61,328 bases of DNA. Source: Bacteroidota bacterium (GTDB lineage Bacteria; Bacteroidota; Bacteroidia; Cytophagales; Cyclobacteriaceae). Each line of letters opens with the position of its first letter. Within the stretch, counting starts at the first letter, position 1. The translations under genes were made by a program, and so were the position numbers. This document shows, piece by piece, positions 20,044 through 27,897 of the stretch. The notes beneath the pieces were generated by a model. The model had not been told where the DNA came from, searched no databases, and saw only the letters and a list, made by a program, of their open reading frames with translations. Location of the stretch: assembly GCA_016866385.1 (NCBI GenBank), contig VGMU01000010.1, forward strand, positions 1-61,328, read 5' to 3'.

Positions 20044-21231
20044 TTATATATTTTTTTTCAGACGATTCCTCCTAGCCATTTCCTTTTGCACCAACTCAAA
20101 CTCTCGACTACTTTGACCTGCTATGGAGGAGTTTTCTGCTGCTCTTCTGGAGAGGTAAGGCATTACCTTTTCTACTGGTCCATAAGGTACATATTTTACC
20201 ACCCTATAGCCTGCTTTTGATAAATTAAAAGAAATGGTATCACTCATGCCGTAAAGTTGGGAAAAATATACCCGATCGGTGGAGGGATCTATGCCTAGAC
20301 TACTCATGCTCGAGGTAAGTTTTAAACAACTTTCTTCGTTGTGCGTGGCACAAACCACATGTACTCCTTGCTCCACGCAATAGCGAATGGCTACATCGTA
20401 ATCTTTATCGGTAGCTTCTTTGCTCGGTTGAATCGGGTCTTGGTACCCCAAAGCTTTAGCGCGTGACCTTTCTTTTTCCATGTACGCTCCTCGCACGGGT
20501 TTTGCTCCAAAAAGATACCCGCCTTCCACTGCTGCTTGATGGGCCTTTTTCAACCTCGCCAAAGAATCGTGCCGGTACATTTGGTAGGTATTGTAAACGA
20601 CACACTTTTCCTTATTGTATTTCTCCATGGCCCTATATGCCAAGGAATCAATGATATCTTGAAACCAACTCTCTTCTGCATCAACTAAAATCTTCAATTC
20701 CAAATCATGAGCTGCCTTGCACAAGCGATCTATGCGGGTCTCCAACCGAGTAAATGCCGCCTCTTCCTCGGTAGTCAAGGTTTGCTTGGCTTGCATTTTT
20801 TCCATAATCCGGTAATCTCCTAGGCCAGTGACTTTGAATACCCCGAAGGGCATGTAGGAGGTTTTTGCAGATTCTACTAGGGTTTGATAGATTTCCTCCG
20901 TAGTAGCGTCAAAACTCATTTCATCTCCTTTCCCTTCCACCGAAAGATCTAAGATGGACTGCACACCGTACTTGGAGAGGGAATTGCAAGCATGTATGCT
21001 ATCCTGAATATTCTCCCCGCCACAAAAATGACCAAACATGGTCTTTTTCAAAATCCCCTTGATAGGCAGGTGAAGCTTAAAAGCTACATTTGCTAAACTC
21101 ATCCCCAACTTGGAAAGAAAAGGAGAATTGAGGGTAGCAAACATCCAATACATCTTTCTCAAAGCTAAATTACTTTTGGAAGCAAAAGCCACTTCCAAGT
21201 TATCAAAAGAAATGGGGGGGGTATCCTGCAT
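20044..21231 (-). CDS. Proline dehydrogenase
   Basis: A flavoprotein that oxidises L-proline to pyrroline-5-carboxylate. The 395-residue TIM-barrel chain has the PRODH signatures [36 protein letters not shown], the segment CATHNEES, and the C-terminal [10 protein letters not shown] motif that contacts proline. It stands alone, not fused to a P5C dehydrogenase. The start used is ATG at 21231; ATG at 21240 adds three residues. A perfect TAnnTTTG at 21250-21257 would put the transcript start just before either codon. Confidence 0.93.
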
Positions 21232-21249
21232 GGGAAGCATTTAAGGCTA

Positions 21250-21257
21250 CAAAGATA
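21250..21257 (-). promoter_or_regulatory. -7 promoter element for proline dehydrogenase (and perhaps lysS)
   Basis: The minus strand reads TATCTTTG (TAnnTTTG), 19 bp from the preferred start. It gives a very short leader. Confidence 0.45.
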
Positions 21258-21426
21258 TTAAAAAACCGCTGTCCCTTCGGATTTGTTTACAGGATAATCG
21301 CTCAAAAAACCAGTTTTATACCCGTTAAGCAAAAGCTAACTATAGGTTTTAAAAATTATTTTAAAAATGAGTCCACGTTCTTGAATAATTGTCTTTTATC
21401 AAATAAGCGATTTCATTTTTTAAAAA

Positions 21427-21457
21427 TTTGACAAAAATTCCCTAAAAAATTATTTTG
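21427..21457 (+). promoter_or_regulatory. Promoter of the Phe/Tyr operon leader
   Basis: A -33-type TTTG (21427-21430) is followed after 19 bp by TTATTTTG (21450-21457), a 7 of 8 match to TAnnTTTG. The spacing is right for the Bacteroidota housekeeping sigma factor. Transcription would start near 21463, about 25 nt before the leader ORF. The 21241-21645 interval otherwise holds the leader ORF and attenuator plus AT-rich DNA with no other recognisable feature. Confidence 0.5.
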
Positions 21458-21488
21458 AATTTAATACTTCACCTTGTACATTTACCCC

Positions 21489-21584
21489 ATGTTAATTTTC
21501 ACTGCGCTCTATTTTAGCTTCTTTTATTTTTACTTTCGACAGCAAAATCGAATCGGCGCTGTGTATTGTCTAGCCAAAAACTAA
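21489..21584 (+). CDS. Phe/Tyr-rich leader peptide of the aromatic amino acid operon
   Basis: A 31-codon ORF with ATG at 21489 and TAA at 21582-21584. It contains six Phe and four Tyr codons. Eight of the nine residues at positions 8-16 are Phe or Tyr (segment LYFSFFYFYF). Aromatic codons at this density directly upstream of a Phe/Tyr biosynthetic operon are the mark of a leader peptide whose translation senses charged tRNA-Phe and tRNA-Tyr. The ORF is followed after 16 nt by a strong terminator and contains one arm of the predicted antiterminator. The peptide itself is not expected to have a function. Confidence rests on composition and position, not on homology. Confidence 0.8.
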   Translation: MLIFTALYFSFFYFYFRQQNRIGAVYCLAKN

Positions 21585-21630
21585 AAAAATAACCACAACA
21601 AAGCCCGATTCGAAAGAGTCGGGCTTTTTT
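21548..21630 (+). promoter_or_regulatory. Predicted transcription attenuator (antiterminator/terminator switch)
   Basis: Two mutually exclusive pairings are visible. The antiterminator is TCGAATCGG (21548-21556) with CCGATTCGA (21605-21613), nine perfect base pairs. The terminator uses the same 21605-21611 bases in its 5' arm (21601-21611). Upstream, TTCGA (21535-21539) can pair with TCGAA (21548-21552), and ACAGC (21539-21543) with GCTGT (21558-21562), which would shield the antiterminator strand. A ribosome stalled in the Phe/Tyr codon run (21510-21536) would cover the shielding bases and favour read-through. The structures were found by eye, without energy calculation. Confidence 0.72.
21601..21630 (+). 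terminator. Attenuator terminator before the Phe/Tyr operon
   Basis: An 11-bp stem (21601-21611 with 21616-21626, one T-G wobble) with a GAAA tetraloop closed by C-G, and a run of six T at 21625-21630. It lies only 15 bp before the first operon gene, so it must be conditional. Confidence 0.88.
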
Positions 21631-21645
21631 ACGTTACACTGCCTT

Positions 21646-22743
21646 ATGAAACCACACAAGCAAATTAAAGATTGGGGCCTAGGACTTAGCAACCCCTTAC
21701 TTATCGGAGGACCTTGTTCTGCCGAAACCCCAGAACAAATCTCCCAAATTTGTTTAGAAATGAAAACCGATGGCTTGGTGCCTCAGGTTTTTAGAGCGGG
21801 AATCTGGAAACCCCGTACCCGACCAGGGTCTTTTGAGGGCGTGGGGGAAGTGGGCTTGACTTGGATGGAAATCGTGCGGAATGAACTCAATATTCCCATT
21901 ACGGTGGAAGTAGGAAATGCCGCACACGTAGAAATGGCATTAAAACACCAAATCGAAATCCTCTGGATAGGTGCACGCACCACGGTAAATCCATTTGCTG
22001 TTCAAGAAATCGCAGAAGCTCTACGAGGCGTGGATATCCCTGTAATGATCAAAAACCCCATGAATCCCGATCTTGAACTTTGGATGGGAGCTTTAGAACG
22101 AATGTACGCTGTAGGTGTAACCAAACTTGCAGCCATCCACCGTGGATTTTCAGATGCGTACGATAAGCGGTACCGCAACAAGCCCAATTGGTCTATGCCC
22201 ATTCATCTAAAAAGAGAGTGGACAGGGATGGAAGTAATCAACGACCCCTCCCATATCGTAGGCAGAAGAGATGGCCTTCTCGAGGTGGCTCAAAGAGCTA
22301 TAAACTTTGGATTGGATGGATTGATGATCGAAACGCATCACGATCCAGACAAGGCTTGGTCAGATGCCAAACAGCAGGTGACACCAAGGCGCTTAAAAGA
22401 AATGATAGACTCCATTGATTTCAAGCAGGCGCTTGAAAACATGAAGCCAGATGAAAAATTGCAGGATCTTCGTAGGGCAGTGGATCATTTGGACGACCAG
22501 TTATTAGATATTTTGCAAGAAAGATTTGCTGTAATAGACCAAATAGGTGCGCACAAGAGAGAACATCACTTGACCGTATTCCAATCGGACCGATGGAAAG
22601 AAGTGATGGACTCTCGCACAGAAAAGGGGGTTAAAAAGCAGCTGAGTGAAAAATTCATGAAAGAATTATTGTACTGCATCCATGAGGAGTCTGTAAAACG
22701 CCAAGAAAAACAACTGAGAGAAGTAGAATCCTTACCCAAATAA
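21646..22743 (+). CDS. Bifunctional DAHP synthase / chorismate mutase
   Basis: Residues 1-260 are a type I-beta 3-deoxy-7-phosphoheptulonate synthase (LIGGPCSAETPEQ, FRAGIWKPRTRPGSFEG, IGARTTVNPFAVQEIA, MIKNPMNPDLELW, IHRGFSDAYDKRYRN, DPSHIVGRRD, IETHHDPDKAWSD). Residues of about 270-355 are an AroQ-class chorismate mutase (LRRAVDHLDDQLLDILQERFAVIDQIGAHKREH). It makes both the first committed compound of the shikimate pathway and prephenate. Here the mutase domain is C-terminal, unlike the N-terminal arrangement in Bacillus. It is the first gene after the attenuator. End-product inhibition through the mutase domain is known for such fusions. Confidence 0.95.
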   Translation: MKPHKQIKDWGLGLSNPLLIGGPCSAETPEQISQICLEMKTDGLVPQVFRAGIWKPRTRPGSFEGVGEVGLTWMEIVRNELNIPITVEVGNAAHVEMALKHQIEILWIGARTTVNPFAVQEIAEALRGVDIPVMIKNPMNPDLELWMGALERMYAVGVTKLAAIHRGFSDAYDKRYRNKPNWSMPIHLKREWTGMEVINDPSHIVGRRDGLLEVAQRAINFGLDGLMIETHHDPDKAWSDAKQQVTPRRLKEMIDSIDFKQALENMKPDEKLQDLRRAVDHLDDQLLDILQERFAVIDQIGAHKREHHLTVFQSDRWKEVMDSRTEKGVKKQLSEKFMKELLYCIHEESVKRQEKQLREVESLPK

Positions 22744-22782
22744 TTTCACCATTCCCTTCCCTATTTCTAAAGTCCTCAGCCC

Positions 22783-23826
22783 TTGGAATCCGTAATTTTC
22801 ACCGACGATTTGCCTAAAACCTTTACTGAGGTTCTGCAATCTCTATTCTATTCTAGGATGGTGATTTTAATTGATTCCAACACCAAAACCCATTGCCTTC
22901 CCCTCCTACAGAACCAGTTACCAAAAAACGTCATCCAGATAGAAATATCACCAGGAGAGGAATACAAGACCTTAGACACTTGCAGCCTTATTTGGAAAAA
23001 AATGACTGAAGAGACCCTGGATCGAAAATCCCTCTTGATCAATTTGGGAGGAGGGGTCATAGGTGACATGGGTGGATTTTGCGCAAGCATTTACAAGAGA
23101 GGAATTCCCTTTATCAGTATCCCCACTACCCTGTTGGCACAAGTAGATGCAAGCGTAGGAGGAAAAGTGGGAATTGATTTTTTAGGTTTTAAAAACCAGT
23201 TAGGTGCATTTAATCCCCCCGAATGCGTGATTATTGCCCCGCAACTGCTAAGGTCTTTGCCTCAACGGGAACTTCGCTCAGGGTATGCTGAGGTACTGAA
23301 GCATGGACTCATTCGAGATGCTGCCTACTTTAGGTCCTTAAAAACCCATAACTGGGAAACTCAAGACTGGGACGAGCTAATCCCTCCATCCGTATCCATT
23401 AAAAAAGCAGTAGTAGAAGTGGATCCAAAGGAATTGGGGCTGAGAAAAATTTTGAATTTTGGACACAGCATTGGACATGCCGTGGAGTCCTTTTTTCTTG
23501 AAAGCGCCTCCCCCCTACTACATGGGGAGGCGATTGCCTTGGGAATGATCGCAGAGGCATTTTTATCTTTTGAAAAAATTGGTTTCAGTTACGAGGAATT
23601 TACCGAAGTAAGCGAAAAACTTCTTCGGATTTTTGGAAAAATAGACCTTTCTGAAGCAGCGATAGATTCTATCTCTATCCTTTGTAATCAGGATAAGAAA
23701 AATGAGGACAATACCCTTCTTTTCTCCCTTTTACCCAAAATTGGAGACTGCACCTACAATGTGCCTGTAAGTACAGAGGAAATCAAGCGGGCCCTGCAGT
23801 ATTACCATAATCTTCCCTTTGCTTAA
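22783..23826 (+). CDS. aroB: 3-dehydroquinate synthase
   Basis: AroB converts DAHP to 3-dehydroquinate using NAD and a metal. The 347-residue protein has the nucleotide loop NLGGGVIGDMGGF, SIPTTLLAQVDASVGGKVGID, the RELRSGYAEVLKHGLI metal-site Glu segment, and NFGHSIGHAVES plus a later LLHGEAIALGM with metal-binding His residues. The start is TTG at 22783; no ATG is available upstream in frame within the 39-bp gap. It is the second gene of the operon. Confidence 0.94.
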   Translation: MESVIFTDDLPKTFTEVLQSLFYSRMVILIDSNTKTHCLPLLQNQLPKNVIQIEISPGEEYKTLDTCSLIWKKMTEETLDRKSLLINLGGGVIGDMGGFCASIYKRGIPFISIPTTLLAQVDASVGGKVGIDFLGFKNQLGAFNPPECVIIAPQLLRSLPQRELRSGYAEVLKHGLIRDAAYFRSLKTHNWETQDWDELIPPSVSIKKAVVEVDPKELGLRKILNFGHSIGHAVESFFLESASPLLHGEAIALGMIAEAFLSFEKIGFSYEEFTEVSEKLLRIFGKIDLSEAAIDSISILCNQDKKNEDNTLLFSLLPKIGDCTYNVPVSTEEIKRALQYYHNLPFA

Positions 23827-23844
23827 CTCTTGAAGTATTTCCCC

Positions 23845-25083
23845 ATGCAACTCCTTAGGCTTAAGCAAAAAAGTGATTTTGGTTTCCATAGTGTACCACT
23901 TCCTTCTTCAAAAAGTGAGTCCAATCGCGCCTTGGTCATAGATGCGCTAACCCAAGGAAAAAATACCTTGAGTAATCTCGCCGAAGCAAGGGACACCCAA
24001 ACCATGATTCGCTTGCTTGACAAAAATCCAGCAGTTTTTGATGTGCTAGACGCAGGAACTACCATGAGATTTTTGACAGCCTATGTGGCAGTCACTAATC
24101 AAAAAAAGGTGATGACCGGAACGCCTCGCATGTGCGAACGTCCCATCGGTATATTGGTAGCAGCCTTGAGAACGCTCGGAGCTGATATACATTACCTGGG
24201 AGCAGAGGGTTTTCCACCCCTAGCCATTCAGGGGCTACCTCAGCAAATCACAGATAGGGTAAAAATCAGAGGGGACGTTTCCAGCCAATACATTTCTGCA
24301 CTTTTGATGGTAGCTCCAGTTTTACCGCAAGGGTTATACCTCCAACTTGAAGGGAAAATAGGTAGTCGTACTTACATCGAAATGACCCTCCAATTGATGG
24401 GTAAATTTGGGATCAAATACTCTTGGGATGGAGATACCATTTCCGTACCCCATCAAACCTACCTCCCAGCAGAATTTGCAGTGGAAAGTGATTGGTCAGG
24501 GGCTAGCTATTGGTTTAGCTTACTCGCCTGCGCCGACTCAGGTTCCTTTTTCCTCAAAGGATTGAAAGAGAAAAGTCTACAAGGAGATGCAGCTATCGTA
24601 AACATCATGAGGGATTTGGGGATACAAAGTACCTTCCAAAAAGAAGGTCTACGCTTGGACAAAATAGCTGTGTCAGGATTAAAAGAATGGGACTTTACTC
24701 CTTGTCCGGATTTGGCACAAACCGTGGCGGTGACCTGTGCTATTTTAGGTCAGAAGGCCGTATTTACTGGATTGGAAAGCCTTAGAATCAAAGAAACAGA
24801 CCGAATTTTTGCCCTGCAGCAGGAATTGGCGAAATTCAATGCTTCCTTGATAGAAATCTCCTCTACTTCTTTTCAACTTATTCCTTCAGTGAGCATGCCT
24901 AGATCCGTACGCATAGATACCTATGAAGATCATCGAATGGCTATGGCATTTATGCCTTTGGTTACCAAAACTGAGGTAAACATCGCCCATCCAGAAGTCG
25001 TAGATAAATCCTATCCTAGCTTTTGGAAGCAAGTGGCTGAGGTAGGGATTGAAATGGACAGTTTAGCACCTTCCAAGCTATGA
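23845..25083 (+). CDS. aroA: EPSP synthase (3-phosphoshikimate 1-carboxyvinyltransferase)
   Basis: AroA joins shikimate-3-phosphate and PEP. The 412-residue chain has PLPSSKSESNRALVIDALTQG, LDAGTTMRFLTAYVAV, GTPRMCERPIGILVAALRTLGA, the GDVSSQYISALLM substrate loop, SDWSGASYWF, LRIKETDRIFAL, and TYEDHRMAMAF. The N-terminal loop and the LDAGTTMRF segment depart from the Escherichia-type sequence, which may place it outside class I. ATG at 23845 is preferred to TTG at 23830. The stop overlaps the next start by ATGA. Confidence 0.94.
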   Translation: MQLLRLKQKSDFGFHSVPLPSSKSESNRALVIDALTQGKNTLSNLAEARDTQTMIRLLDKNPAVFDVLDAGTTMRFLTAYVAVTNQKKVMTGTPRMCERPIGILVAALRTLGADIHYLGAEGFPPLAIQGLPQQITDRVKIRGDVSSQYISALLMVAPVLPQGLYLQLEGKIGSRTYIEMTLQLMGKFGIKYSWDGDTISVPHQTYLPAEFAVESDWSGASYWFSLLACADSGSFFLKGLKEKSLQGDAAIVNIMRDLGIQSTFQKEGLRLDKIAVSGLKEWDFTPCPDLAQTVAVTCAILGQKAVFTGLESLRIKETDRIFALQQELAKFNASLIEISSTSFQLIPSVSMPRSVRIDTYEDHRMAMAFMPLVTKTEVNIAHPEVVDKSYPSFWKQVAEVGIEMDSLAPSKL

Positions 25084-25898
25084 ATATCGCTATTCAAGGA
25101 ATTCCAGGTTCATTTCATCACCAAGTAGCCTTGCAATGCTATGGTAATGAGGGAATCATCTTACCTTATTCCACTTTCGAAGAGGTAGCCAAAGCGGTCG
25201 CTAGAGGTACTGCAGACTTGGGCATCATGGCCATTGAGAATTCTATAGCGGGAGCAATTTTGCCCAATTATGAACTTTTAGACCGCTACCAACTTCAAAT
25301 TTTTGAGGAGTATTACTTGCCTATAGCACATCATTTGATGGCCTGGCCAGGACAAAAGATCGAGGAAATCCTCGAGGTGCGATCTCATCCTATGGCCTTG
25401 TTGCAATGCAAGGCATTTTTGGCCTCCTACCCTCAACTGCAGCTGAAGGAAGATATAGATACCGCTTCAGTTGCCAAGAAAATTGCAGAAGAAAAGCTAA
25501 AAGGAATAGCTGCCATCGCCAGTGACATTGCCGCCTCCATCTATGGATTAGAAATTCTAGCTTCTCAAATTCAAACGGTTCAAAGAAATTTCACCCGATT
25601 CATTTTGCTTTCTAAAAATCCTGGCAGCCAAAAAAATATCGCCAATAAAGTTTCCTTCAAAATTACTATTCGAAATGAGGCAGGGGGATTGGCCAAATTG
25701 CTGACCATGCTGTACGAAAAGAATTTAAATCTGAGTAAAATTCAATCTATTCCTGTAATGGATATGCCTTGGGATTACGCATTTTTTATCGATGCGGAAT
25801 TTTCAAACTATGCTTCCTATCAAGAGGCTGCTCGTATCATGCAAGAGGATTTTGGGGAATTGAAAATTTTTGGAGAATACAGCAGCAGAAAAGAATGA
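25080..25898 (+). CDS. pheA: Prephenate dehydratase
   Basis: It converts prephenate to phenylpyruvate on the way to phenylalanine. Of 272 residues, about 1-180 form the PDT domain (IQGIPGSFHHQVALQCY, the ADLGIMAIENSIAGAI active-site stretch, VRSHPMALLQC, and NFTRFILLSKN), and about 195-270 are an ACT domain (FKITIRNEAGGLAKLLTMLYEKNLNLSKIQSIP) that normally binds Phe for feedback inhibition. It is coupled to aroA and to the next aminotransferase gene by ATGA overlaps at both ends. Confidence 0.95.
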   Translation: MNIAIQGIPGSFHHQVALQCYGNEGIILPYSTFEEVAKAVARGTADLGIMAIENSIAGAILPNYELLDRYQLQIFEEYYLPIAHHLMAWPGQKIEEILEVRSHPMALLQCKAFLASYPQLQLKEDIDTASVAKKIAEEKLKGIAAIASDIAASIYGLEILASQIQTVQRNFTRFILLSKNPGSQKNIANKVSFKITIRNEAGGLAKLLTMLYEKNLNLSKIQSIPVMDMPWDYAFFIDAEFSNYASYQEAARIMQEDFGELKIFGEYSSRKE

Positions 25899-27052
25899 GG
25901 GAATTTGCTTCAAGAATTAAACAGGTAGAAGAGTATTATTTTTCTGCCAAACTCAGAGAGGTGCAGCAAATGATTTCTGAGGGAAAGCCGGTGATCAATC
26001 TTGGCATAGGTTCACCCGATCTTCCGCCTGATCCTAAGGTAAGAGAGGCTCTAGCTCAGACTGCCCTCTTGGAACACACCCATGGATATCAAAATTACCA
26101 GGGAATTCCTGCCCTCAGGGAGGCTATGGCCAAATTCTATCAAAAAAAATATCAAGTCGCCCTCTATCCCCACCAAGAAATACTCCCCTTGATGGGGTCC
26201 AAAGAGGGAATATTTCACTTGAGCATGGCTTTTTTAAATCCAGGAGATCAAGTACTTGTACCCAATCCCGGATATCCTACTTACCATGCCGTAACTCGCC
26301 TACTCTCTGCAGAAGCAATTCCATATACCTTGGATTTGACCAGAAAGGGAAGGCCAAATTTAGAAACCCTAGAGGACTTGGATTTGAGTAAAGTCAAAAT
26401 CATGTGGATCAATTATCCTCACATGCCCACGGGAGCCCCGGGATCCTACGAAATCCTTGAGGAGCTAGTTGATTTTGCGAAGAAATACCAGATTTTGTTG
26501 CTACATGATAATCCCTACAGCCATATTTTACATCCCAAAGCCTACAGCATACTCTCCATCCCTGGAGCAAAAGAGGTGGCTATGGAACTCAATTCTTTAA
26601 GTAAAACTTTTCACCTTCCCGGTTGGAGATTGGGCATGCTTTGTGGTAGTGAAGAGCGAATTCAAGGCGTACTCAAAGTCAAATCCAACATGGACTCAGG
26701 GATGTTTTTAGGCCTTCAGCATGGGGCTATTGCCGCCCTTTCTTTAGATGATAATTGGTTTGAAACTCAAGGAATTCATTACACCAGACGAAGAGAATTG
26801 GTTTGGAAAATGGCCGAAGGCCTTGGCTTACGATTCGATGCCTCAACTTCCGGATTGTTTGTATGGGCAAAGCTCCCAGAGCGAGTTACTTCCAGCGATT
26901 TGGTTGATCGATTGCTCTACGAAAAAAATATATTTATTACCCCAGGATCCATCTTTGGTACTGAAGGAGAAGGGTACGTTCGGATTTCCTTGTGTGTCTC
27001 TGAAGGTAAACTGCAAGAGGCCATTCACCGCATCTCAGATTTTACATTATGA
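25895..27052 (+). CDS. Class I/II aminotransferase, probably aromatic/prephenate-pathway
   Basis: A 385-residue fold-type I PLP enzyme. Features in order: INLGIGSPDLPPDPKVREAL, HGYQNYQGIPALREAMAKFYQKKY, VPNPGYPTYHAV, WINYPHMPTGAP with the cofactor Asn, LLHDNPYSHI, and the Schiff-base Lys in NSLSKTFHLPGWRLGML. Its place between prephenate dehydratase and prephenate dehydrogenase suggests transamination of phenylpyruvate and 4-hydroxyphenylpyruvate, but aspartate or LL-diaminopimelate-type activity cannot be excluded. The ATG at 25895 overlaps the pheA stop; a longer reading from 25769 lies inside pheA and is rejected. It is coupled to tyrA by ATGA. Confidence 0.9.
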   Translation: MREFASRIKQVEEYYFSAKLREVQQMISEGKPVINLGIGSPDLPPDPKVREALAQTALLEHTHGYQNYQGIPALREAMAKFYQKKYQVALYPHQEILPLMGSKEGIFHLSMAFLNPGDQVLVPNPGYPTYHAVTRLLSAEAIPYTLDLTRKGRPNLETLEDLDLSKVKIMWINYPHMPTGAPGSYEILEELVDFAKKYQILLLHDNPYSHILHPKAYSILSIPGAKEVAMELNSLSKTFHLPGWRLGMLCGSEERIQGVLKVKSNMDSGMFLGLQHGAIAALSLDDNWFETQGIHYTRRRELVWKMAEGLGLRFDASTSGLFVWAKLPERVTSSDLVDRLLYEKNIFITPGSIFGTEGEGYVRISLCVSEGKLQEAIHRISDFTL

Positions 27053-27897
27053 AAAAAATTCATCTCATTGGACTGGGCCTTTTGGGTGGTTCCCTAGGGC
27101 TTGCTGCTCGCCAAAAGTTCCCAAATCTTCTTGTGACAGGTCAGGACAGCAATCCTGCACACTTGCAAGAAGCCTTAAATCTAGGCATCATTCAAGAAGC
27201 CAGAGAAATTCCTGATAGCGATACCGATTTAGTGGTATTGGCTACTCCAGCAGATAGCTTGGGAACACTGTTGCTTGAAATGCTTTCGCAAATTGGCCCC
27301 TCTACTCTTGTAATTGATTTGGGATCCACCAAGGCCAAACTTTGTGCACTGGTAGCTTCTCATCCAAAAAGAGGACAATATTTAGCTGGACACCCCATAG
27401 CAGGTACAGAATATTCAGGCCCAAAAGCGGCTTTGGCAGAACTTTTTGATAGAAAGGTGATGATACTTTGCGAGTTAGAAAAAACAGACCTCTTCTTGAA
27501 AGAAAAAGCCTATACCTTGTTTGATGCCTTAAATCTAAAACTACGTTTTATGGATCCTGAGGAGCACGACCGGCATCTGGCTTTCGTATCCCATTTGTCC
27601 CACCTTTCTTCCTTTATGCTTGGAAGAACGGTGCTTCAAAAAATGGAGGATGAAAAACATATTTTTGACATGGCGGGATCTGGATTTTCTTCTACTGTAC
27701 GATTGGCCAAATCCAGTCCTGCCATGTGGGCGCCTATCTTTATTGAAAACAAAGAAAATGTATTGAGTGCCCTCGATGGGTATATTGCCAACCTGAGTGC
27801 ATTTAGATCAAAAATCGCCAATGAGGATGCTCATGCGCTCCTGGAGGAAATGATCGAAATCAATGCGATAAAAGGAATCTTAGATTTTGGGAAATAA
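27049..27897 (+). CDS. tyrA: Prephenate dehydrogenase
   Basis: It oxidatively decarboxylates prephenate to 4-hydroxyphenylpyruvate for tyrosine. The 282-residue chain has the NAD loop IGLGLLGGSLGLAAR at the N-terminus, DLGSTKAKLCALV, AGHPIAGTEYSGPKAA with the catalytic-type His, LAFVSHLSHLSSFMLGR with the second His pair, and FDMAGSGFSSTVRLAKSSPAMW. No ACT or mutase domain is attached, which fits the mutase being fused to the DAHP synthase upstream. It is the last gene of the operon; no clear terminator follows. Confidence 0.94.
   Translation: MKKIHLIGLGLLGGSLGLAARQKFPNLLVTGQDSNPAHLQEALNLGIIQEAREIPDSDTDLVVLATPADSLGTLLLEMLSQIGPSTLVIDLGSTKAKLCALVASHPKRGQYLAGHPIAGTEYSGPKAALAELFDRKVMILCELEKTDLFLKEKAYTLFDALNLKLRFMDPEEHDRHLAFVSHLSHLSSFMLGRTVLQKMEDEKHIFDMAGSGFSSTVRLAKSSPAMWAPIFIENKENVLSALDGYIANLSAFRSKIANEDAHALLEEMIEINAIKGILDFGK

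Follow-up and report, generated by a model that had tools for sequence, protein, structure and literature searches.

A candidate leader-peptide attenuator with a predicted leaderless start before an aromatic amino acid operon of Cyclobacteriaceae

In the pheA and pheST leaders of E. coli, a Phe-rich leader peptide, an antiterminator and an intrinsic terminator lie before Phe-related genes. Leader-peptide attenuation as such is classical, and clues for it in Bacteroidota were published in 2021; among the literature examined here, it is nevertheless hardly described in this phylum, with brief hints only. Namely, passages of PMC9723704 describe strong clues that amino acid operons of a flavobacterium are preceded by leader-peptide attenuators, as well as structured 5' elements upstream of pheA and hisG in Flavobacteriaceae, and a passage of PMC7366714 notes leader-like short ORFs in a Bacteroides. 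According to a passage of PMC2965389, its authors in 2010 knew of no leader-peptide system beyond the Proteobacteria and Actinobacteria other than the Firmicutes case that they presented themselves, and the words Bacteroidetes, Bacteroidota and leader peptide are absent from the main text of PMC11109978. In the literature searched, we recognised no description of the Cyclobacteriaceae system discussed below; an earlier prediction of it within cross-bacterial work on attenuation is possible.

A second group of relevant systems consists of leader peptides on leaderless transcripts, which passages of the respective papers describe for ilvBNC of Corynebacterium (PMC11857589), for the cysteine leaders of mycobacteria (cited in PMC9031893) and for trpL of Sinorhizobium (PMC7298713). 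According to passages of PMC9723704, the phylum Bacteroidota is without Shine-Dalgarno sequences, leaderless mRNAs make up 5.5% in Flavobacterium psychrophilum, and the promoter motif TAnnTTTG sits at -12 to -5 in that organism; in B. thetaiotaomicron, 5' UTRs under 10 nt make up about 3.7% (a passage of PMC7366714).

The leader, its promoter and its operon

The window, by which we mean the whole stretch of 61,328 nucleotides that was analysed, contains an intergenic region of 405 bases that holds the Phe/Tyr leader of an Algoriphagus-like bacterium. The upstream neighbour of the leader is a proline dehydrogenase gene on the opposite strand (20044-21240). Behind the leader, on the forward strand (21646..27897), come the genes that it presumably regulates, in the order DAHP synthase with a chorismate mutase domain, aroB, aroA, prephenate dehydratase (pheA), a class I/II aminotransferase and prephenate dehydrogenase (tyrA). 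These six co-directional genes span the first step of the pathway, the Phe branch and the Tyr branch. The domains of all six agree with the aromatic operon described in the initial annotation, which had also matched the mixed Phe and Tyr codons of the leader to an operon making both amino acids, as these genes do. From strand and spacing, we infer that the six genes form one transcript; scans within them gave 6 sigma70-type promoters (9.2 in shuffles, i.e. no excess) and 8 terminators (6.7 in shuffles, no more than chance). In Rfam, no family reaches its gathering score in 21200-21900, the best leader match being Thr_leader with 19.8 bits as against the 55 required.

The leader ORF (21489..21584, forward strand; 31 codons and a stop; translation MLIFTALYFSFFYFYFRQQNRIGAVYCLAKN) was found just as first annotated, with ten Phe/Tyr codons, eight of which fall within the nine consecutive codons 8-16 (21510..21536, forward strand). 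This putative sensing run reads YFSFFYFYF, and its density is beyond chance. Namely, in 3000 dinucleotide shuffles of the 405-base region, the best short ORF never reached 8 of 9 Phe/Tyr and reached 7 of 9 in six cases; among ORFs of 10-60 codons in all six frames of the whole window, the runner-up for Phe/Tyr density has 6 of 9. The run is kept in relatives: of 85 unique 31-codon leaders, 78 have Phe/Tyr at eight of the nine codons 8-16, and the other 7 have it at seven of them. Further along the same 85 leaders, codons 18-19 are variable and residues 21-24 and 26-28 almost invariant, with the codon letters there about as fixed as the residues (ATC in 85/85, CGA in 84/85 and TAT in 84/85). 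Tyr-Cys at codons 26-27 (TAT TGT, 21564-21569), whose residues are kept in 84 and 81 of the 85, takes part in none of the pairings named below. A virus scan with an exact 20-mer of the window gave no match.

Ahead of the ORF lies a Bacteroidota-type promoter, consisting of a -33 element TTTG (21454..21457, forward strand) and a -7 box TACATTTA (21477..21484, forward strand; consensus TAnnTTTG) that ends 4 nt before the leader ATG. Both the 19-nt spacing between the two elements and the 4-nt distance from box to ATG recur in 30/30 same-genus loci, and the promoter proposed in the initial annotation has to be amended to this conserved element, TTTG-N19-TAnnTTT. A TTGACA at 21428 was considered as a promoter and rejected, since, judged by eye, few of these loci have it (L001, L002, L020). 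Within the family, 36/40 loci have the box 4 nt before the ATG; the remaining 4, which belong to a single genus, have it at 5 nt. Of the 14 distant loci (54-62% identity), 10 have it at 4 nt, L132 being scored by eye. Script scoring of 74 leaders from named genomes placed the box 4 nt from the ATG in 68 of them and 5 nt from it in 4; the remaining 2, scored as 10 nt, are cases in which the script took an inner ATG. When the 88 bases preceding the ATG were put through 200,000 simple shuffles, the TTTG-box-ATG arrangement arose 6 times, and a TAnnTTTG box 4 nt ahead of the first ATG occurs in none of the 53 window ORFs of at least 120 codons. The leaderless-promoter pattern has 13 matches in the genome of the window and 15 in one relative, as against 4 and 4 in the reversed control; in the 27 of these 28 loci that were parsed, apart from the Phe/Tyr leader in both genomes, no amino acid leader was recognised. 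Taking the position of the box together with the -12 to -5 spacing of F. psychrophilum, transcription is predicted to start at 21489 (forward strand), i.e. on the A of the leader ATG, and the leader mRNA is thus predicted to be leaderless.

Conserved parts and pairings of the leader RNA

An intrinsic terminator occupies 21600..21630 of the forward strand, as seen from sequence, folding and covariation, with a stem at 21600-21627, a GAAA loop and a T tract at 21625-21630. Its loop and its distance of 15 bp from the DAHP synthase ATG at 21646 are as originally given, but the stem has 12 pairs rather than 11. The 183-nt region folds with z = -2.2, and 7/200 shuffles fold as well. In L029, about 90 additional bases lie between the terminator and the DAHP synthase gene, giving a distance of 112 nt as against about 17-26 nt in the other 29 genus loci. 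The antiterminator strand, region 2 (TCGAATCGG, 21548..21556, forward strand), lies within the leader ORF at codons 20-23 and is, as first noted, the exact complement of region 3 (21605..21613, forward strand), which comprises part of the terminator 5' arm and the loop. On the grounds of sequence, folding and conservation, the 2:3 antiterminator and the 3:4 terminator share bases and are mutually exclusive. A putative protector strand, region 1 (CACTGCGC, 21500..21507, forward strand), located at about codons 3-7 ahead of the Phe/Tyr run, pairs with region 2b (GCGCTGTG, 21556..21563, forward strand) with one U-U mismatch; region 1:2b adjoins region 2 and overlaps it only partially, and 1:2 is weaker than 2:3 at equilibrium. 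Of the two shielding pairings in the initial annotation, the inner one (5' half TTCGA, 21535..21539, forward strand, with 21548-21552) and the second one (ACAGC, 21539-21543, with 21558-21562) are both complementary as described. The second is not a conserved partner, however, since its 5' half lies in codons 17-19, and codons 18-19 vary.

How widely is this arrangement kept? A protein search gave matches in 57/58 genomes. In the genus set, which comprises 30 loci with that of the window included (five further close matches lie outside it), a leader of 29-31 codons with the aromatic run and a terminator is present in 30/30. The family set, i.e. the upstream DNA of 40 of the 51 matches with at least 77% identity, covers 21 genera and has leader and terminator in 40/40; one of these, L095, is aberrant: its five aromatics are followed by Leu codons, it is shorter by one base, and its region 1:2 stem, judged by eye, is a new one. 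In the distant set (14 of the 18 matches whose DAHP synthase is 54-62% identical), a diverged Phe/Tyr leader and a terminator are found in 14/14, 13 of them by script and L132, which has a GTG start, by eye; here the Phe/Tyr run is kept, and most of the remaining peptide differs. At 49-53% identity (L144-L149), the leader before the DAHP synthase gene is missing in 6/6 loci. A core-motif scan of named genomes gave 92 stretches, and among the 80 matches listed, the leader is present in 74, the other 6 being unrelated. With a loose region 2 pattern, 72/295 genomes gave a match; among 14 loci inspected outside the known leaders, only L053, which is the same place as L112, had a leader, the other 13 being unrelated DNA. 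The codon-biased ORF is, in other words, kept in the genus, in the family, in the distant loci and in named genomes.

Sequence comparison suggests that base changes tend to keep the RNA pairings. Region 1:2 typically reads CACAGC/GCTGTG in Algoriphagus and CGCAGC/GCTGC in other genera, the second strand lying in codons 24-25, and these changes alter the residues from Thr to Ala and from Val to Ala. Since both pairing changes alter amino acids, conservation there appears to concern the RNA rather than the peptide. Among 55 sequences, pair 10-74 of this stem is A-U in 29, G-C in 19, G-U in 3 and unpaired in 4; at the outermost position, pair 9-75, 23 of the sequences are unpaired. Region 1:2 has a covariation score of 0.222 as against 0.155 in shuffles that preserve columns and not ancestry, with 0/500 as high; its double-sided pair changes (2) and further pair types (8) were matched by 444 and 447 of the 500 shuffles. 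The terminator stem likewise shows some compensation (0.120 as against 0.101, 0/500 as high), the counts of pairs changed on both sides and of extra pair types each being reached by 111/500. Because A-U versus G-C mostly follows one split, the close set contains few independent events, to which the distant group and L095 add others. In the 55 sequences, 2:3 is paired in 99.6% of cells and varies to one G-U type only, so nearly invariant that no compensation is measurable in the close set; in the inner shield, four of the five pairs are invariant, leaving no compensation to test, and the fifth is broken in 18.

The distant loci carry other sequences at these places, e.g. ACAAGGAC/GTCCTTGT for 1:2 and CGAGTCGG/CCGATTCG for 2:3. 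With swaps made within the group, the cognate duplexes average -13.4 kcal/mol as against -8.8 kcal/mol for swapped ones (1:2) and -15.2 as against -12.2 kcal/mol (2:3); the gain is smaller in the close leaders, at -13.7 versus -11.5 and -11.9 versus -10.7 kcal/mol, respectively. In 2/14 distant loci, 1:2 is unremarkable (L131 rank 41 and L140 rank 88 of 107), and against swaps, 2:3 ranks 8 of 14 in L136 and 9 of 14 in L143. All told, the compensatory changes that had been suggested as a check are visible, with covariation in the 1:2 and terminator stems above that of 500 shuffles and with stronger cognate duplexes, and what the initial annotation had named as refuting its reading, an absence of ORF conservation or of compensation, was not seen.

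Proposed mechanism and its alternatives

We read this locus as a ribosome-mediated transcription attenuator that senses charged tRNA-Phe and tRNA-Tyr, and we assign this reading a probability of about 0.88; it is the mode of control first annotated, and ORF conservation and compensatory changes support it. Transcription would begin on or beside the first letter of the leader ATG, with a ribosome loading straight onto the 5'-terminal start codon. If Phe or Tyr is short, the ribosome would stall in codons 8-16 and disrupt region 1, the inner shield or both, leaving region 2 free to pair with region 3; with 2:3 formed, no terminator would arise and the six genes would be transcribed. With an ample supply of both, the ribosome would proceed over codons 18-27 and cover region 2, the 1:2 hairpin could form behind it as it advances, and the terminator would fold, stopping transcription at about 21630. 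The start site, the stalling, the direction of the response and the relative weight of masking and protector hairpin are points that we infer.

Folding of 92 leaders, with RNA up to the terminator loop, at equilibrium and with an assumed ribosome footprint of about 30 nt, gives this scheme a particular shape. Mean free energies are -14.0 for 1:2, -19.1 for 2:3 and -18.0 for 3:4. In the nascent RNA, 2:3 has a mean probability of 0.92 with no ribosome. A ribosome on codons 8-15 gives 0.95-0.97, one on codon 17 gives 0.42 and one on codons 18-26 gives 0.00-0.07; from codon 29 onward, the value is 0.90 or more. By these probabilities, the antiterminator stays available while a ribosome is stalled in the run, and 2:3 cannot form once the ribosome has moved just beyond it. 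Before region 3 exists, region 2 is paired upstream with a mean probability of 0.63, which becomes 0.32-0.50 with a ribosome in the run. However, since both the ribosome-free RNA and RNA with a ribosome on codons 29-31 prefer 2:3, the simple three-hairpin logic alone gives no termination, and the earlier proposal that the shielding pairings by themselves restrain the antiterminator is not supported at equilibrium. In this model, the antiterminator would be the default of the nascent RNA, and repression would need either kinetics or a ribosome over codons 18-27; termination after the ribosome finishes must, if the model is right, be kinetic, e.g. by the 1:2 hairpin forming first. A pseudoknot of 1:2b with 2:3 may also occur.

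One may then ask whether direct masking alone would suffice, with an unstalled ribosome over region 2 blocking the antiterminator and the protector pairing being secondary. It is only with the ribosome over codons 18-27 that the probability of 2:3 drops to about 0, and region 2 does lie within the ORF with about 8 codons following it. That said, 1:2 is kept through base changes and with new sequences in the distant loci, and is therefore probably under selection, and from codon 29 on, the ribosome in the folding model leaves region 2 uncovered, so that we think masking alone rather unlikely. A more radical possibility is that the leader peptide itself is active, by arrest or in trans, with RIGA(V/A)YCL as the active part. 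Although the near invariance of residues 21-24 and 26-28 in the 85 leaders would fit, the nucleotides there are about as fixed as the residues, region 2 spans codons 20-23, the stop of a few leaders comes directly after YC or one codon sooner, and the distant leaders mostly do without the motif, yet keep the Phe/Tyr run and the pairings. We regard an active peptide as highly improbable.

Much the same low standing is given to control of translation in place of transcription termination, in which the DAHP synthase gene would be translated by coupling to the leader ORF or by reinitiation after it. The leader is near the gene, and leader genes have been proposed as translation enhancers (a passage of PMC4833913), but between the leader stop and the gene start lie 61 nt and a conserved T-tailed hairpin, and L029 has its much longer terminator-to-gene distance. 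Least credible of all is an ordinary terminator behind a chance T-rich ORF, with no regulation: the region is AT-rich and Phe and Tyr codons are T-rich, but the shuffles, the conservation and the kept pairings leave hardly any room for it. The preferred reading is still the attenuator that senses charged tRNA-Phe and tRNA-Tyr.

Other amino acid leaders and known systems

In the genus of the window, fitting leaders precede hisG and trpE in 6/6 loci each, with the -7 box standing 7-9 nt upstream of the ATG for his and 9-10 nt for trp, and ilvD has a leader ORF and a hairpin in 4/4 inspected of 6 loci, branched-chain-rich in two. Judged by sequence, these His, Trp and branched-chain leaders would count in favour of the attenuator reading. 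As individual examples, a Trp leader MKTNANNKWWWHFYSFLGKAQKALA lies upstream of trpE in L171 (G000:C23, minus strand), with a T-tailed hairpin by eye and the -7 box 10 nt from the ATG; a His leader MKSNVANLIFSLPAQVHHLLHHFHHSS lies upstream of hisG in L154 (G000:C32), with the -7 box 8 nt from the ATG; and a short ORF MNSKVFPLRFCLLVCSGI stands ahead of a strong T-tailed hairpin upstream of ilvD in L159 (G000:C17). In two relatives, the ilvD leader ORF is rich in Val, Leu and Ile (MYKVVILLSLIILIGC, MYPLVVLLSIIILIGFSK).

Across the class, pheA was found above the cut-off in 19 of 70 genomes. At 9/19 of these loci, a short upstream ORF has Phe/Tyr at six or more of 8 codons, five of the 9 having a perfect-stem terminator by script, and no such ORF lies within 900 nt upstream at the other 10/19, one of which is the window's own pheA, internal to the operon. 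A -7 box, found in five of the class-level leaders, stands 15-32 nt before the ATG, and these leaders therefore look not leaderless. By eye, the strand after the run is complementary to the terminator 5' arm in the Phe/Tyr leaders before pheA in L177, L185, L188, L192 and others.

The attenuator appears to be kept across the family, with named parts that are open to direct testing, and similar leaders stand before the his, trp and ilv operons of the genus. Tentatively, and at odds short of even, one might see in Cyclobacteriaceae a leaderless switch in which the ribosome itself is the repressor, covering an antiterminator inside the ORF unless it is stalled, with the near-leaderless His and Trp leaders pointing to a general strategy. 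If true, this would be a general attenuation strategy in a phylum without Shine-Dalgarno sequences, and the leader would offer a way to study transcription-translation coupling from leaderless starts there.

The Flavobacteriaceae elements before pheA and hisG belong to the same phylum and the same pathways as the present leader, and the passages of PMC9723704 that describe them give no leader, pairing or covariation. With Corynebacterium ilvBNC, the mycobacterial cysteine leaders and Sinorhizobium trpL, the present leader would have in common that its start codon coincides with the transcription start or lies one nucleotide away from it; according to the passages available, those three belong to other phyla, concern other amino acids and have a reported start site, whereas the start here is predicted. 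Finally, in common with the Phe attenuators of E. coli, the present locus has a Phe-rich leader peptide, an antiterminator, an intrinsic terminator and Phe-related genes behind them; unlike them, it combines mixed Phe and Tyr codons with the genes of both branches, an antiterminator strand within the ORF and a predicted leaderless start.
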